This document shows positions 39,534 to 50,799 of a DNA stretch of 50,911 nucleotides, in pieces (the first letter of the stretch is position 1; every line of letters starts with the position of its first letter). A model generated the notes under the pieces. It worked only from the letters and a program-made list of their open reading frames with translations, was not told the DNA's origin and did not search any database. A program made the position numbers and the translations under genes. This stretch comes from an uncultured bacterium. GTDB taxonomy: Bacteria; Verrucomicrobiota; Kiritimatiellia; RFP12; UBA1067. The stretch covers positions 1 through 50,911 of the forward strand of contig CACYQU010000009.1 in the NCBI GenBank assembly GCA_902776615.1, read 5' to 3'.

Positions 39534-40762
39534 ACGGCGTTTTGTCCTTTCAGTTCGCAACCGGGATATATGAATAGCCTACAGTCGATCGGACCGTTGA
39601 AAAACGGAACCCTGGTTCTGTAGTAGAGATTTACCATGCGCGCCAAGTCGGGATTGCCCGTTATGAGGCCGCCGGTCCAGCCGGCGCACTTTTCATTCAT
39701 GAAAGTGCCTATGCGTTCATAGACGGGTGCAAGCTCTTCGTATGTTCCAAGGCGTATTCCGTATTCGGGGTTGAAGAATATGCACCCCTTCCCGTCCGGC
39801 ACGGGAGTTTCGGCAAAGTCGCACGCTTTGAACTCGATATGCTGCGCAACTCCTGCGGCAATGGCGTTGGTGTATGCGTTTTCGATAGCATCCGGCGATA
39901 TGTCGGTGGCTATTATTCGAGGCATTGCAGAAGTGTTTTCCGCATTCTTGGCGTCAATCACCATTTCTTTCCATATCTGTTCAGGGGTCGCGCCGGCGCG
40001 TTGGCGCGGAGCCACCCGCGGCGCGGATTCGTTTGGAATCATGCGCGTATAGCCCTTTACTGACTGGAAAGCGAAGTGACCCTTGAGAGAGCCAGGCGCT
40101 TTGTTCATTGCCATCATGGCGGCTTCTATCGCTGGAGTGCCGCTGCCGCACATTGGGGCAAGGAAAGGATCTTTCCTGTTCCAGTGCATGGCCATGAGGC
40201 ACGCGGCGGCGAGTGTTTCCTGCATTGGCGCGGAACCGGGTATTTTGCGGTATCCGCGCTTGGAAAGAGGTTCGCCGGAAGTGTCGAGATATATTATGAC
40301 CTCGTCGCGCTCCCAATAGACGAAAACGGCGGATCCGATGTTTTCTCCACCTGAATCGGGGCGGCGCTGACAGCGTTCGCGCATGCGATCCGCAATGGCG
40401 TCTTTGGTGTAAAGCGATGGAAGCCTCGTATCGCGTATCGTGCTGTTGTGCACTATCGACGATACCGAAAAGTATCCATCGGCCTCGATAAGGTTTTCCC
40501 AATCTATCGAAAGGGCCGATTCGTAAAGATCCCGTATATTGCGGCAGGTGGTGCGAAGAAGCGGCACAAGCACGCGATGTGCCGTGCGCAGATAAAGGTT
40601 GAGCCTCATCACATCGCGCATCGAGCCGCGTACCACCACGGTATTTTCGGTAACCTCTATGGGCTTGTAGCCCATATCGATCACTTCAATCTCTGTCCAG
40701 CGCGAAAGTTCTTTTGCGCAGGATATTATGATAGGGTAGTTTTTATCCGTCCAAAGCTTCAT
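39530..40762 (-). CDS. THUMP-containing 23S rRNA guanine methyltransferase-like protein (RlmL N-terminal type)
   Basis: 410 residues. THUMP region about 40-160 (VVVRGSMRDVMRLNLYLRTAHRVL), then RGYRK, PMQETLAAACLMAMHW, DPFLAPMCGSGTPAIEAAM (SAM-binding motif I) and IIATDISPDAIENA. The catalytic motif IV reads FFNPEYGIRLGTYEEL near residue 333, i.e. NPEY instead of the usual NPPY. The family makes m2G in 23S rRNA; the target base here is inferred. It lies 42 nt downstream of dnaN in the same direction, with GGTGAA as a weak SD. Confidence 0.85.
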   Translation of the reverse strand: MKLWTDKNYPIIISCAKELSRWTEIEVIDMGYKPIEVTENTVVVRGSMRDVMRLNLYLRTAHRVLVPLLRTTCRNIRDLYESALSIDWENLIEADGYFSVSSIVHNSTIRDTRLPSLYTKDAIADRMRERCQRRPDSGGENIGSAVFVYWERDEVIIYLDTSGEPLSKRGYRKIPGSAPMQETLAAACLMAMHWNRKDPFLAPMCGSGTPAIEAAMMAMNKAPGSLKGHFAFQSVKGYTRMIPNESAPRVAPRQRAGATPEQIWKEMVIDAKNAENTSAMPRIIATDISPDAIENAYTNAIAAGVAQHIEFKACDFAETPVPDGKGCIFFNPEYGIRLGTYEELAPVYERIGTFMNEKCAGWTGGLITGNPDLARMVNLYYRTRVPFFNGPIDCRLFIYPGCELKGQNAV

Positions 40763-40804
40763 CGGTTCACCATTGACCTTTTCTTTTCCTCTGCAAAGAA
40801 CGTG

Positions 40805-41899
40805 TCAGCTTATCCTGAGCGGCATCAGCACGTACAGGAACGGTATGGAGCACTTTATTACGGCAGGCGAATGGCCATTGTTGATGTTGATGGTTATTTC
40901 ATCGTCATCTATCGCCTTGAGAGGATCCATAACGTAATTCGGGTTGAACATTATTTCGATGGTCTCTCCGCCATACTTGATCGGAACCTCGTCTTTCGCT
41001 TCTCCTATCTCGCTTGCGGCGGAAGTTACGGTAAGCCTGTTCGAATCGAAAATGAGCTTCGTGGAATGGGCTTCATCCATAGTCATTACGCTGGCGCGCT
41101 CGAGCGCGTCCAGAAGAAGCTGCCTGTCAATGGCTATAGTGTGCTGGCATTCGGCAGGTATCACCTGGCGGTAGTTCGGGTAGGAATCGTCCATTAGCTT
41201 CGAATATATCTGCACAGATCCTATATTGAAGCTTATCTTTGTATGCTGCACGTTTATCATAACGTCGCCTTCGCCGGCAAGCGAACGCTGCAGTTCCTGC
41301 ACGGCTTTCGAGGGCAGCACTATGTCGCGCTCGGAGGTTTTGGGAAACTCCATCTCTCTCTCCACAAGGGCAAGGCGGCGGCCGTCGGTTGCAACCATCG
41401 TCAGTTTCTCGTCCTTGAAACTCATGAGAACGCCCTTCAAAGTGCGACGGGTATCGTCTTGAGATGCAGCATAGGCGGTCTTTCTCAGCATTTCCTGGAG
41501 AGTCTGCCGCGGAATGGAATATTCGCAGTTTTCTTCCTCGCCTCCAAGTTTTGGAAAATCCGCCTCAGGCTTGCCGTTGAGTTTGTAGCTTGCGCTTCCT
41601 GCACGGATCACTGCCTGTTCATTCGAATCAATCTCTACATCAACACTGCCTTCGGGGGCTTTGCTGATAAGATTGAACAGCAGCTTTACGGGAAGAGTGG
41701 AAGCACCCTCTTCGGCAACTTCGCAATTGACGTTGCTCACTATTGAAATATCGAGATCGGTAGTGGTAAGCTTGAGATTTTCTCCGCGCGCTTCTATCAT
41801 CACGTTTTGCAATATTGGCAACGACCCCTTTCCCGCCACTATGTTCTGGACGGGTTTAAGAGCCTCGATAAACTTCGAACGAATTATGCTGAACCTCAT
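40805..41899 (-). CDS. dnaN: DNA polymerase III beta sliding clamp
   Basis: 364 residues, three-domain clamp. Recognised by MRFSIIRSKFIEALKPVQNIV, LPILQNVMIEA, LKLTTTDLDISI, VATDGRRLALVE, KLMDDSYPNYRQVIP and the C-terminal YVLMPLRIS, the hydrophobic pocket that binds clamp-binding peptides. ATG 41899 is preceded by AAAGGAAA. It is downstream of dnaA on the same strand, separated by a 254-bp gap with its own promoter. Confidence 0.97.
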   Translation of the reverse strand: MRFSIIRSKFIEALKPVQNIVAGKGSLPILQNVMIEARGENLKLTTTDLDISIVSNVNCEVAEEGASTLPVKLLFNLISKAPEGSVDVEIDSNEQAVIRAGSASYKLNGKPEADFPKLGGEEENCEYSIPRQTLQEMLRKTAYAASQDDTRRTLKGVLMSFKDEKLTMVATDGRRLALVEREMEFPKTSERDIVLPSKAVQELQRSLAGEGDVMINVQHTKISFNIGSVQIYSKLMDDSYPNYRQVIPAECQHTIAIDRQLLLDALERASVMTMDEAHSTKLIFDSNRLTVTSAASEIGEAKDEVPIKYGGETIEIMFNPNYVMDPLKAIDDDEITININNGHSPAVIKCSIPFLYVLMPLRIS

Positions 41900-42153
41900 T
41901 TTACTTTCCTTTCTCTGCCCACTCGGGGCTTTGGGTTGTAATTGTATCAAATACTTTAACTGAAATAAAGGGTTATGTTATTACTATTACTTAGGTGTGT
42001 TCACAATGTTGACAACTCGAGAATGCGTTGTGGCACAAGTGTTTCACGCGTTTTGCCATGTTCACTTCTTTTGCCATATCTCGTTCACTCCGTTTCATAA
42101 GACTGCCCGCATGTAGACAAATTCCAATTGATGCACACGTTATGCACAGGCTT
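41900..42153. promoter_or_regulatory. dnaA-dnaN intergenic region with dnaN promoter and one DnaA box
   Basis: AT-rich 254-bp gap without a gene. The dnaN extended -10 on the minus strand is TGATACAAT (41949-41941); predicted leader about 35 nt. A perfect TTATNCACA box, TTATGCACA, lies at 42140-42148 just beyond the dnaA stop. Several near-matches to TGTTCAC/GTTCAC motifs also occur (around 42000 and 42060). Confidence 0.6.
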
Positions 42154-43560
42154 TCAACCTATTCTATCCTCAATTGTAAGACCGAAATCCGAAATGACCG
42201 AAATGAGGTTTTCCTTCAGTTCCGGCTCGACATCTAGCCTCTTGGCGATTGATTTTACTCCGTGCAGAATGGTGGCATGTGTCTTTTCAAACTCCTTGGC
42301 TATCTCAGGAAGGCTCTTTGTGGTGTATTTTCTTGCGATATACATTGCAAGCTGGCGAGGAGTTACGAAAGATGCAGTTCTCTCAGAAGACAGTATCTGC
42401 TGAACCGAGACCGAATACTTTGATGCTACTGAAGACTGAATCTCCTCTATAGTCACCTTCTTCTGCTTTTTTTCCTTCTCTATGAAATCCTTCAGAAGAT
42501 GTGAGAGTATTTCATCGCTCAGTTTTATTGTCCGGTCAAGGCGCATCATCACATTTACCTTGCCTAATGCGCCTTCCATGGCTCTCACATGGCTTTTGAT
42601 GTTCTGTGCTATAAACTTAAGGGAGTCTTCAGATACCGGCGGATCCATCACCTCCGACTTTTTCTTGAGAATGGCAAGCCTCGTTTCATAGCTTGGCTGC
42701 TCGATCTCTTGAACCATTCCCCATTCGAAACGCGAAATGAGTCGTGGTTCTATGCCAGGCAGATCCTTTGGAGCAACGTCGCTCGTCATTACAATCTGCT
42801 TGCCGTCGTTGTGCAGAGAGTTGAAAGTATTGAAGAATTCTTCCTGGAAGTCCTTTCCCCGGCTCATGAATTGTATGTCATCCACAAGAAGAACGTCTAT
42901 TTTTCGGTATCTCTCTCTGAACTGCTGTATCGACGAACTTGTAAGTGCATTTACATATTCATTCAGAAATCTCTCGGCTGTAAGATAGCATACCGATGCC
43001 TTTGGATTGTTCTTCTTTATTTCGTTTCCAATGGCCTGCATGATATGGGTCTTGCCGAGACCGGTTCCGCCATGTATGAAAAGAGGGTTGAATCCTTTCT
43101 TGCCAGGTTCTTTTGCGGCACCTTTTGCAGCCGCATGGGCCCAGCTGTTTGAAGGACCGGTCACGAATTCGTCGAACGTATAATCATCGTTCAACGGCAT
43201 CGTCGAAACGAATAGACTGCTCTTCTCCGGTAAGCGCACTTCAGCATTCTTTTGCTTTGGCACTATTATGGACGGTTTTGCGCTCTCGTCGAATTTGAAG
43301 TCTATGGTTACTGCTTCACCGCCGTCTGACAATATAAGGGCGTTTTTGAGTTTTATGCCGTACGTATCTCTCAAAAGTTCAGCGGCGAATTGATTGCCGG
43401 TGAACACGGTATAATGTCCATTGACCTCTGAAATGGATGTTACCATGGAGAAGTGTCTCTTTGCTTGATCCTTCTCCTCCTGTGAGGATAACGTCGACAC
43501 ATAAAGGCCTACGGCTCTATTCCAAGCCGCTTCTGCTTTAGATTCTGGTGTGTCGTTCAT
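42154..43560 (-). CDS. dnaA: Chromosomal replication initiator DnaA
   Basis: 468 residues. Domain I about 1-75. AAA+ core with Walker A GGTGLGKTH near 165-172, Walker B VLLVDDIQFM, sensor motif TSDVAPKDLPGIEPRLISRFEWG. Domain IV: VTPRQLAMYIARKYTTKSLPEIAKEF, then EKTHATILHGVKSI, where the family usually has GRDHTTV; the aligned loop is T427-H428-A429-T430. The frame is open to 43692, but MNDTPESKAEAAWNRAV matches a normal start and lies about 29 nt after the predicted +1. Binds origin boxes and loads helicase. Confidence 0.97.
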   Translation of the reverse strand: MNDTPESKAEAAWNRAVGLYVSTLSSQEEKDQAKRHFSMVTSISEVNGHYTVFTGNQFAAELLRDTYGIKLKNALILSDGGEAVTIDFKFDESAKPSIIVPKQKNAEVRLPEKSSLFVSTMPLNDDYTFDEFVTGPSNSWAHAAAKGAAKEPGKKGFNPLFIHGGTGLGKTHIMQAIGNEIKKNNPKASVCYLTAERFLNEYVNALTSSSIQQFRERYRKIDVLLVDDIQFMSRGKDFQEEFFNTFNSLHNDGKQIVMTSDVAPKDLPGIEPRLISRFEWGMVQEIEQPSYETRLAILKKKSEVMDPPVSEDSLKFIAQNIKSHVRAMEGALGKVNVMMRLDRTIKLSDEILSHLLKDFIEKEKKQKKVTIEEIQSSVASKYSVSVQQILSSERTASFVTPRQLAMYIARKYTTKSLPEIAKEFEKTHATILHGVKSIAKRLDVEPELKENLISVISDFGLTIEDRIG

Positions 43561-44050: not shown

Positions 44051-46225
44051 ATGAAAAACTCTTACATAAATGTTATAGTGATTGGGGGCGGACACGCCGG
44101 GGCTGAAGCAGCTTTGGCGGCTGCCAGAATGGGTGCCAATACCCTTCTTGTGACTTCTTTGAAAGACGCTATCGCCCGTATGCCATGCAATCCGTCTATC
44201 GGAGGTTTGGCTAAAAGTCACCTTGTCTATGAGCTGGATGCGATGGGTGGAGAGATGGGACGAAACGCCGATGCAACTGCCCTTCAGGCTAAGACTTTGA
44301 ATCTAAGCCGTGGTCCGGCTGTTTGGGCTACTCGCGCCCAATGCGCCAAGCGGGAATATTCGCTTCGGATGCAGCGAGTGATAGACAATCAACCTAACCT
44401 TGAAGTCATTGAAGATAGCGTAATAGATTTGATTGTCCAAAAGCAGAGTATGGAGAGCAAAGATCGTCCAGCAGGTGTTGACGGCTCTCTTAAATGTGTT
44501 GGTGTCAAAACCCTCTCTCATGGTGAATTCTACGCAAGCGCAGTCGTTGTAACAGCTGGTACCTCTCTTAGGGGGCGAATATGGATAGGAAAAGATTGTC
44601 AAGAAAGCGCCGGCGATGACCGCCCGGCAGTAAATCAGTTATCTGAGACACTTTCTCGGCTGGGATTCAACTTGATACGCCTGAAAACCGGCACTCCTCC
44701 AAGGCTCAAGGCAGCTTCTTGCGACTTAAGCAAGTGTGTGAGGCAAGATGGAGAACATCCACGCCCATTGTTCCACGTGGAACAATTTATTGATGATGCT
44801 ATCCCTCGAAACTCTGGCGATATAGACTTATCAAGGGATAGAGACGCAAACCAAGTAAATTCGCATAGTTCTAGTTGTTCTAGCGAGGCTAGAGAGACTA
44901 GTAATGCTAGCGGATCTAGCTGTTCTAGCCGGGCTAGTGGCTCTAGCGGGGCTAGTATTTCTAGTTGCTCTAGCGGGGCTAGCGTTTCTAGCGTTTCTAG
45001 TGATACTAGCGGGGCTAGTATTTCTAGTTGTTCTAGCGTTTCTAGCGTCTCTAGCTGTTCTAGCGTCTCTAGAGGTTCTAGTTTATGTGGCTCCTCCAGT
45101 AGCCCTAGTGATTATGGGTTTGCTGGCAGTATTCTTGCTTCCGCAGGCGGCGACGAAATGTTCCACGTGGAACAAAATATGCCAGAGTACCCTTGCTGGC
45201 AAACGCATACAACGCCTGAAACGCATGATATAATACGCTTCAATCTCGATAAATCGGCGCTGTATGGAGGCGCAATACAAGGCACAGGTGTGAGGTATTG
45301 TCCATCGATAGAAGATAAAATAGTGCGGTTTGCTGATGCAGATCAGCACCATGTTATGCTTGAGCCAGAGAATATCGATGGTTCGGTTATATATCCCAAT
45401 GGTCTCAGTTGCAGTTTGCCGAGGGATGTACAGGAGCGTATGGTTCGATCCGTTCCGGGCTTGGAGCACGCGGAGTTTCTGGCATATGCCTATGCAATCG
45501 AGTATGACGGCATTGATGCGAGGGAGTTGAAGCATTCCCTAGAATCAAAGAGAATTGCCGGATTGTTTTTTGCCGGACAGGTAAACGGCACGACGGGTTA
45601 TGAAGAAGCCGCCGCGCAAGGATTTATGGCTGGTGTAAACGCTGTATTCAGTTCGCGCGGGGAAGAACCTCTGGTAATCAGCCGTCAAGATGCCTACATA
45701 GGCGTGATGATCGACGATTTGGTGACTAAGGGGACAGATGAACCATACAGAATATTCACCAGCCGCGCTGAGCGCAGACTGCTTTTGCGCCAGGATAATG
45801 CCAGATATCGCCTGGTCGATGCGGCAGAGCGAATAGGAATACGCGGCGAGTCCTATATAAATGAGACTAGACATTTCATGGAATTGCTGCAAAAGGGGAT
45901 GTCCTGCAAAGGGACAATGGATGAAATAGATGCATCATTGAGCGAGAAAGCGAGGAGGTATCTTGAGAGAGAACTAGGTATTATGCGACACTACGCGCCG
46001 TATATCGAGCAAGAGCGCAAGGCGGCAGAGCGGGCGAAGCAGGACGAAGCACTGGCGATTCCGCGCTGGCTCGATTACGACAAGTGCGTGGCCGTCAGGT
46101 ACGAGAGCAGAGAAAAACTGAAGAAATACAGGCCAGAGACGCTGGCCCAGGCCGCGCGAATACCCGGCGTAAACCCTAGTGATGTGGCCATACTGGCCAT
46201 AATCATCAAGCGCGGCCATGCATAG
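44051..46225 (+). CDS. mnmG: tRNA uridine-5-carboxymethylaminomethyl enzyme MnmG with a Ser-rich insertion
   Basis: FAD enzyme that works with MnmE on tRNA U34. 724 residues versus about 620-630 for the family. FAD site [19 protein letters not shown] at the start; [56 protein letters not shown]-terminal [14 protein letters not shown]. Between PRPLFHVEQ (241-245) and MFHVEQ (371-375) there are about 125 extra residues, mostly Ser in SS-x steps (274-344), where normal MnmG has a short FSF loop. Both FHVEQ are translations of parS sites. Both flanks are intact and in frame, so the enzyme is probably active. Confidence 0.95.
44769..44784. promoter_or_regulatory. parS centromere site 1 (ParB/Noc-type palindrome)
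   Basis: TGTTCCACGTGGAACA, a perfect 16-bp palindrome (18 bp with flanking T/A). It fits the parS consensus TGTTNCACGTGNAACA. It is in frame inside mnmG and reads as FHVEQ. Confidence 0.85.
44871..45081. repeat. 9-bp CTAG minisatellite inside mnmG
   Basis: CTAG occurs at every ninth base from 44871 to 45078, 24 times in exact register, with a further in-phase copy at 45105. The repeat unit is NNCTAGNNN. The reading frame splits CT|AG, giving Ser-Ser or Ala-Ser steps and keeping the TAG out of frame. CTAG is normally rare in bacterial DNA. Confidence 0.95.
45159..45174. promoter_or_regulatory. parS centromere site 2
   Basis: TGTTCCACGTGGAACA, identical to the site at 44769-44784 and 390 bp (130 codons) downstream in the same frame (FHVEQ again). 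The parAB genes are not in the window. Confidence 0.85.
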
Positions 46226-49230: not shown

Positions 49231-49246
49231 CTTCATTAAAATGAAG
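49231..49246. promoter_or_regulatory. Operator O1 of the hipBST module (inferred)
   Basis: CTTCATTAAAATGAAG, a perfect inverted repeat of 7 bp around AA. A related sequence, CTTCACTTTAATGAAA, is at 49293-49308; the two share CTTCAyTwwAATGAAr and are 62 bp apart, on either side of the promoter. This is the layout expected for HipB autorepression. Confidence 0.6.
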
Positions 49247-49265
49247 AAACGACTGCGGCGAGCCC

Positions 49266-49308
49266 TTGACGTCCGACGGAGATTGTGGTATTCTTCACTT
49301 TAATGAAA
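49266..49308 (+). promoter_or_regulatory. hipBST promoter with overlapping operator O2
   Basis: TTGACG (49266-49271), 17 bp, TATTCT (49289-49294) with TGG extension. Predicted +1 near 49301 and ATG 49303, leaderless. O2 (49293-49308) covers the +1 and start codon. Confidence 0.7.
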
Positions 49309-49518
49309 CCGCAAGAAATAGGAACAGTCATCGCCAGAAGGCGAAAGTCGCTGAGGGTCAATCAGCGTGAACTGGCCATGCTCTGCGGAGTTTCGGAGCA
49401 TGCGCTTTGCAATCTTGAGCGCGGTAACGGCAATCCGACTATTGGACTTCTCGGCACTGTTGCGGACGCACTGGGGATGGATCTGAAGATATCCGTGAAG
49501 GATATGGAGTTGTCGTGA
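49303..49518 (+). CDS. hipB: HipB-like XRE antitoxin/repressor
   Basis: 71 residues, almost entirely an XRE helix-turn-helix: IGTVIARRRKSLRVNQRELAML, GVSEHALCNLERGNGNPTIG. It would bind the two palindromes around its own promoter. ATG 49303 is chosen because an earlier in-frame ATG (49285) lies within the promoter. Stop overlaps hipS start (GTGA). First gene of a three-gene module. Confidence 0.88.
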   Translation: MKPQEIGTVIARRRKSLRVNQRELAMLCGVSEHALCNLERGNGNPTIGLLGTVADALGMDLKISVKDMELS

Positions 49519-49832
49519 AGAGCGTAACGGTATATGTCAAAGGGGTTGCTGCCGGGGTGCTCGCCCATTTCAGGCGGGGCGGATACGAATTTCGCTACAC
49601 GCGCGAATATCGGGAGAGCGGACGGCCTTCCGTGGCGTTTTCGCTGCCCAAGAGCCAGGCTGTTCACCGTTCGGACGTGCTGTTCCCGTTCTTCTACGGA
49701 CTTCTTGCCGAAGGGGCTTGCAAAAAGATGCAGTGCCGGATGCTGCGGATTGACGAGAACGATCATTTCACCCGCCTTGCCGAAACATGCAGGCAGGGTG
49801 TGATAGGAGTGGTGTATGTGCTTCCTAGATAG
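49515..49832 (+). CDS. hipS: HipS-like small protein (HipA N-terminal subdomain)
   Basis: 105 residues corresponding to the N-subdomain-1 of HipA (Couple_hipA): VTVYVKGVAAGVLAHFRRGGYEFRYT, then RPSVAFSLPKSQAV and LFPFFYGLLAEG. It is a separate protein rather than fused to the kinase. In E. coli O127:H6 HipBST, the corresponding HipS acts as the antitoxin. GTG start with GGAG at 49506-49509. The hipT start lies 17 nt before its stop. Confidence 0.85.
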   Translation: MKSVTVYVKGVAAGVLAHFRRGGYEFRYTREYRESGRPSVAFSLPKSQAVHRSDVLFPFFYGLLAEGACKKMQCRMLRIDENDHFTRLAETCRQGVIGVVYVLPR

Positions 49833-50745
49833 GGTTCCCGACGTTCTTCCCTTCACAAAAGCCGATCTCCGGCTGCCCGTTGCCGCTCGCAAAGGGCTGC
49901 GCAATTCCATATCGGGCGTGCAAACCAAGGTTTTGCTCGCTCTCGTAGACCGGGAGCTCAGGCTCGTGGATGCCGGCGGAGATTTCATACTCAAACCCGT
50001 ACCGGAAGATTCCCGCGCCAGATTTGCCGCCGATATTCCTGCAAACGAAAACGTCACGATGCAGATGGCTTCTCGCCTCTTCCGCATACAGACTGCCGAA
50101 AACAAGTGCGTCCGGTTTGCCGACGGTGAGCTTGCATATCTTACGCGCCGCTTCGACCGCAGAAACGGCGCGGGCGTCAGGCAGGAGGATCTCTGCCAGA
50201 TTGCGGGGCGCAGCGAGGAAACGCACGGCGAGGCGTACAAGTACGACTTCAGCTACGAGGAGATGGCGGATGTAATACGGCGAGCCTGCCCGGCGTCGCG
50301 CGTAGAGCTGCTCAAGGTCTTCAGGCAGATATTGTTCGACTACCTGTTCGCCAACGGCGACGCACATCTGAAGAACTTTTCGGTCTATGAGAGCGAGGAC
50401 GGGGATTATGTCATGACTCCGGCTTACGATCTGCTGAACACGACGCTGCATTTTCCTGGCGATATCACATTCATGGCGCTGTCGCTGTTCCGCGATCAGG
50501 ACTTCATGACGCCGCAGTTCGAAAGTCTTGGATACTACTCCGAGCCGGATTTTGTGGCACTCGGGAAGTGTTACGGGCTGAGCGAAGCGGCGGTGCGCGC
50601 CATAGTCGGTGAGTTCGTTGCGCAAGAGGCCAAGGTCGCAGACATGGTGGATGCGTCGCTGATGTCCGACGGGGCGAAGGGAGAGTATATGCGCATATTC
50701 CGCGACAGACTCGCGATGTTCCGCCGGGGGGCACCTAACGGGTGA
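49816..50745 (+). CDS. hipT: HipT-like serine/threonine kinase toxin (HipA C-terminal part)
   Basis: 309 residues. Gly-rich/phospho loop S31-I-S33-GVQTK; FILKP with the ATP Lys; PANENVTMQMASRLF; YLTRRFDR; RQEDLCQIAG; catalytic NGD182-AHLKN187-FS; metal-binding YD205. All HipA-type kinase residues are kept, so it should be active. Family knowledge: HipA and HipT phosphorylate aminoacyl-tRNA synthetases and cause growth arrest. The target here is unknown. Overlaps hipS by 17 nt. The stop is followed by a weak CACC/GGTG hairpin and T7. Confidence 0.9.
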   Translation: MCFLDRVPDVLPFTKADLRLPVAARKGLRNSISGVQTKVLLALVDRELRLVDAGGDFILKPVPEDSRARFAADIPANENVTMQMASRLFRIQTAENKCVRFADGELAYLTRRFDRRNGAGVRQEDLCQIAGRSEETHGEAYKYDFSYEEMADVIRRACPASRVELLKVFRQILFDYLFANGDAHLKNFSVYESEDGDYVMTPAYDLLNTTLHFPGDITFMALSLFRDQDFMTPQFESLGYYSEPDFVALGKCYGLSEAAVRAIVGEFVAQEAKVADMVDASLMSDGAKGEYMRIFRDRLAMFRRGAPNG

Positions 50746-50770: not shown

Positions 50771-50799
50771 TTGCACATCCGTGAAGAATATGGTATTAT
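50771..50799 (+). promoter_or_regulatory. Promoter of the last, partial gene
   Basis: TTGCAC (50771-50776), 17 bp, TATTAT (50794-50799), extended TGG. Predicted +1 near 50806, leader about 53 nt. Confidence 0.7.

Follow-up and report, generated by a model that had tools for sequence, protein, structure and literature searches.

Evidence for a hipBST toxin-antitoxin module with paired operator-like sites and a HipS without the Trp65 wedge residue in an uncultured rumen-type Kiritimatiellae bacterium

The window analyzed here, a 50,911-nucleotide stretch of DNA, is the entire contig C9 of a 2.35-Mb assembly that is 88% complete. Its right end carries what is very probably a type II toxin-antitoxin module of the hipBST kind, with no part damaged (probability of about 0.88, judged from sequence). 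HipBST is an already known system, characterized in detail in two gammaproteobacterial examples; what is new here is the placement and conservation of the putative operators, the missing wedge residue of HipS, the shortened HipT, and a set of reordered relatives. We infer that HipT is toxic and that HipS neutralizes it. The HipA N-lobe cap would be present as an independent copy, HipS, that binds HipT beside its Gly-rich loop, and this binding would keep HipT from ATP. HipB, alone or with HipT/HipS, would bind both operator-like sites and repress the operon, O2 covering the −10 end, the predicted transcription start, and the hipB start codon (Table 1).

Table 1. Features of the predicted hipBST module (window positions)
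Feature	Position	Strand	Description
O1, distal operator-like site	49232-49245	.	TTCATTAAAATGAA; starts 71 bp before the hipB ATG
Predicted hipBST promoter	49266-49294	+	−35 TTGACG, 17-nt spacer, −10 TATTCT; consensus scan 9/12
O2, proximal operator-like site	49294-49307	.	TTCACTTTAATGAA; from the −10 end across the hipB start codon
hipB	49303-49518	+	71-aa HTH protein, putative autorepressor; HTH_3 5.7e-7
hipS	49515-49832	+	GTG start, 105 aa, HipA N-subdomain-1 protein, putative antitoxin
hipT	49816-50745	+	309-aa HipA_C kinase, putative toxin; PF07804 3.8e-41

An earlier note on this DNA had read hipB, a 105-residue hipS, and hipT as separate overlapping genes in the order of HipBST. Gene calls and HMM families agree with this, with overlaps of 4 nt (hipB/hipS) and 17 nt (hipS/hipT), and the gene order, domains, nearest solved relatives, loop motif, and operator-like pair all fit. 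In an HMM scan, hipB matched TIGR03070 (couple_hipB; 6.2e-12) under that model's cut-off, and hipS matched PF13657 (Couple_hipA; 6.6e-16) and TIGR03071 (8.4e-19), the latter over its cut-off. HipB, at 65 to 72 aa, consists of little more than its HTH. An in-frame GTG upstream (49285) was rejected as the hipB start, as relatives share the ATG and the GTG is not conserved. A scan for an intrinsic terminator 3′ of hipT found none. Compared with relatives at 62 to 81% protein identity, dN is far below dS in hipB, hipS, and hipT, with changes mostly at third codon positions. Against locus L036, dN and dS are 0.17 and 1.09 for hipB and 0.13 and 2.95 for hipS, dS in the hipBST comparisons being near or beyond saturation. 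All three are thus maintained proteins, and the substitution pattern indicates that they are under purifying selection.

By sequence, profile, and structure, the nearest matches of HipT are HipT kinases, ahead of HipA. Its matches in the PDB were Legionella HipT (1.2e-25), E. coli O127 HipT (1.5e-22), and HipA (5.3e-7), and a profile built from 19 relatives scored the same three at 218, 147, and 65 bits. When an AlphaFold model (mean pLDDT, 88; pTM, 0.89) was searched with Foldseek, ranks 1 to 11 were all HipT chains, with HipA behind them. The S-I-S motif previously noted in the kinase loop lies at residues 31 to 33 (SISGVQTK) and fits the S-aliphatic-S pattern of the largest HipBST subgroup. 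The kinase motifs (loop, lysine, catalytic D/H/N, and Mg-binding D) are intact, with K38, K60, D182, H184, N187, and D205 present. The residues published as essential in O127 HipT, K64, K86, H212, N215, and D233 (PMC9325769), correspond to K38, K60, H184, N187, and D205 here and are invariant in a 19-sequence alignment. N-subdomain 1 is absent from HipT and has a gene of its own, hipS. The description of a complete HipA-type kinase holds for the core but not for the N terminus, which has about 26 residues fewer ahead of the loop than that of O127 HipT (S31 here, S57 there); the N-terminal mini-domain of the E. coli protein is mostly missing. The closest relatives of the window share this shortening, whereas a Cys-containing N-terminal stretch is retained in Bacteroidota relatives and the other HipBST clade.

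HipS likewise resembles solved HipS proteins. Its best match in the PDB was Legionella HipS, HipS(Lp) (1.6e-13), with O127 HipS at 2.6e-7; a further comparison gave HipS(Lp) at 8.7e-23, HI_0666 at 4.2e-21, and O127 HipS at 6.3e-19, with HipA at only 6.8e-12. In E. coli, Trp65 of HipS is placed next to the active site, and the W65A change abolishes neutralization (PMC10627512). The aligned residue here is Ala68. We read this alignment column across a tree of 61 rows (60 loci, and the assembly's own hipA as the outgroup). In the window's branch of 47 rows, the position is taken by Ala, Val, Ile, Glu, Ser, Thr, Pro, Arg, or Asp and never by Trp, whereas Trp occurs in two other branches, one with (S/T/A)-V-P loops and one formed by the pair L061/L062. 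The tree is a quick one with long branches and unsupported forks, and deep placements are tentative even with support of 91 at the 47-row fork. The Glu and Gly that precede the wedge position are invariant in the HipS alignment. Trp65 is a mechanistic rather than a defining feature of HipBST, present in many HipS proteins but not all. HipS(Lp) has Ile at this position and neutralizes HipT by turning the P-loop into a helix, which blocks ATP (PMC9325769). With Ala there, HipS of the window cannot use the E. coli Trp65 wedge, and HipS in its clade would neutralize without it, probably by P-loop displacement as in Legionella HipST. The Ala and the loss of most of the O127 HipT N-terminal mini-domain both speak against a hipBST assignment.

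The earlier note had also described two matching 16-bp palindromes, 62 bp apart, flanking the promoter. The spacing and placement were confirmed (62 bp from start to start, either side of TTGACG-17-TATTCT), but only O1 is close to palindromic over 16 bp. O1 (CTTCATTAAAATGAAG, 49231-49246) pairs at 7 of 8 positions; O2 (CTTCACTTTAATGAAA, 49293-49308) pairs at 5 of 8, an imperfect palindrome in which the TTCA/TGAA half-sites are intact, so that both sites have the form TTCAN6TGAA. With up to 2 mismatches, CTTCAYTWWAATGAA matched four times in the window (0.19 expected; none of 100 shuffles reached four), and the exact 15-bp motif occurs in the 2.35-Mb assembly at O1 and O2 only. We compared the 39 loci of the window's branch for which hipB was available, counting the window itself. 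A perfect TTCAN6TGAA at −9, covering the hipB ATG, is found in 36 of them, and O1, with at most one mismatch, lies at −69, −70, or −71 in 37, as against 0.7% of shuffled upstream sequences. The flanks of the sites vary between loci, and most relatives have a −10-like hexamer at the matching place. Chance palindromes were rejected on the basis of this conservation and of genome-wide uniqueness. We infer that O1 and O2 are HipB operators. The spacing of 61 to 62 bp is about six turns of B-DNA, which would put both sites on one face. As the −10 hexamer ends 8 nt before the hipB ATG, transcription should begin within a few bases of that codon, and the hipB message is probably leaderless. Other HipBST clades have different paired sites in similar places; upstream of hipB, the (S/T/A)-V-P clade carries TATACCC...GGGTATA-like sites rather than TTCAN6TGAA. 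These bacteria thus harbor two HipBST clades, the second of which (L030 to L033, L066, L068, and L069) combines (S/T/A)-V-P loops and a HipS Trp with repeated TATACCCGATCGGGTATA-like sites upstream of hipB.

The module is ordinary for its lineage and differently placed among genomes. The earlier suggestion that its occurrence here extends the architecture did not survive as a claim of rarity: a HipT match at 1e-25 is present in 45 of 388 genomes sampled evenly across the phylum. Of the 115 genomes in the window's family, 74 gave a match to a HipA-like kinase (E ≤ 0.001), mostly a weak one, and about 22 loci match HipT at an identity of at least 45% over most of its length. Tight overlaps and the B-S-T order recur across family and phylum, nearly all fetched loci with complete flanks having that order. 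Two loci of the same family, L018 (397-1810) and L021 (1283-2693), instead have the order hipB-hipT-hipS, with a 4-nt hipT/hipS overlap and the same operator-like pair upstream of hipB. The parts seen of a kinase-superfamily survey describe hipBST and hipJS, and no mention of a hipB-hipT-hipS order was found in them. Relatives of up to 42% identity lie on plasmids, many of them of Bacteroidota, and in contigs classified as viral, where the complete trio was present in five cases out of six. In the relatives retrieved, none of the four window genes upstream of hipBST was found beside the module, which thus has a different genomic setting in them.

HipS and HipT align with the N- and C-terminal parts of HipA and their genes overlap, as they would if a canonical hipBA operon had its hipA frameshifted into two pieces, by decay to a pseudogene or by assembly error. 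We give this practically no credence and rejected it on account of the relatives and the hipB-hipT-hipS loci: the identical split and overlaps are present in dozens of genomes, L018 and L021 have hipS as a separate gene after hipT, both proteins are closer to HipT and HipS than to HipA, and dN is far below dS. Nor is the split a general habit of this assembly, since it also holds an ordinary hipB-hipA pair (L001, contig C83). Other HipA_C matches in the assembly lie on contigs C94, C66 (apparently broken or cut), and C36 (a lone kinase).

An alternative that accepts the split is that HipS is non-inhibitory, serving as a cap, folding partner, or co-repressor of a HipT-like kinase that is restrained by HipB or by autophosphorylation, the wedge residue being absent. 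The inactivity of W65A in E. coli and the non-Trp residues throughout the window's branch would suit it. It is unlikely, however, given that HipS(Lp), with Ile there, still neutralizes HipT by moving the P-loop, that the preceding Glu and Gly are invariant, and that HipB is so small. As for the TTCAN6TGAA pair, it might be the site of another regulator or be conserved only as promoter and coding sequence; O2 overlaps the −10 and Met-Lys/Met-Asn start codons, which constrains some of its bases, and binding by HipB is itself a prediction. We consider this very unlikely: O1 lies in noncoding DNA upstream of the −35 and keeps its position, the flanks differ, the pattern is found nowhere else in the genome, and the other clades have paired sites of their own. 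Within the hipBST reading, we suggest only tentatively, as a possibility short of an even chance, a distinct HipBST lineage centered on Kiritimatiellae, with wedge-free HipS and with HipB-HipT complexes that bridge operators some six turns apart and block the transcription start and the leaderless hipB start codon together. The clade offers a natural test of the Trp-wedge model, with dozens of HipS proteins that have other residues at the very position where W65A inactivates the E. coli protein. Together with the hipB-hipT-hipS relatives, the near-constant spacing of the putative operators is clean material on how HipB, HipS, and HipT share repression and neutralization.

The closest named relatives of the window are Kiritimatiellae metagenome-assembled genomes (MAGs), several from ruminant digestive tracts, in keeping with the PVC bacterium proposed earlier. 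A location near the origin is plausible as well: GC skew changes sign at about 40 to 42.5 kb, adjoining mnmG (44 kb), and a turn at 40000-42500 would fit a replication origin 7 to 9 kb from hipBST. Inside mnmG (44051-46225) are two exact 16-bp parS-like palindromes, TGTTCCACGTGGAACA (44769-44784 and 45159-45174), both in frame and encoding FHVEQ. They bracket a Ser-rich TCTAG-repeat insert of about 370 bp and have no further copies in the 2.35-Mb assembly. At 50772-50799, 5′ of a truncated signal-peptide-like gene at the contig end, is a promoter-like TGCACA-16-TATTAT partly similar to the hipB promoter.

Known targets of these kinases are class I synthetases, TrpS for O127 HipT and GltX for HipA. 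TrpS was not found in the window's assembly, but it is present in 20 of 20 other sampled relatives, so the absence is most likely a gap in the MAG, and we no longer take it to mean that the target differs. In relatives from the same genus, TrpS carries the usual KMSKS loop; this loop is universal and decides nothing on the target. Neither TrpS nor GltX rescues Legionella HipT (PMC10653801), so for HipT of the window a class I tRNA synthetase, for example TrpS, is only a reasonable first guess.

Among known systems, hipJS modules also combine a small kinase with a separate HipS as putative antitoxin, but they are bicistronic, without hipB, and have hipS downstream of the kinase gene rather than upstream (PMC8262856). 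E. coli O127:H6 HipBST (PMC6581861; PMC10627512) shares with the window the B-S-T order, overlapping genes, split HipA, and S-I-S loop, and its HipT has the same catalytic residues and fold at 27 to 28% identity in structural alignment. It differs in HipS (Trp65 rather than Ala) and in the length of HipB (107 versus 71 aa). The Legionella pneumophila system (PMC9325769; PMC10653801) is the best-scoring solved relative; like the window, it has a HipS without Trp at the wedge position, and its several spaced operators upstream of hipB resemble the putative pair of the window. Its HipT has an S-V-Q rather than an S-I-S loop. Between its three operators are gaps of 53 bp, and the operator closest to hipB lies 24 nt before the gene, whereas the window has two putative operators 62 bp apart, one of them on the start codon. 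The Legionella motif differs from that of the window and is reported to be missing from the E. coli promoter (PMC10653801). HipBA of E. coli K-12 and Shewanella, whose operon is autorepressed, has a HipA_C kinase with an HTH partner, as the window does. Its HipA is a single chain of about 440 aa, which has no counterpart in the window and matches HipT clearly less well than HipT proteins do.
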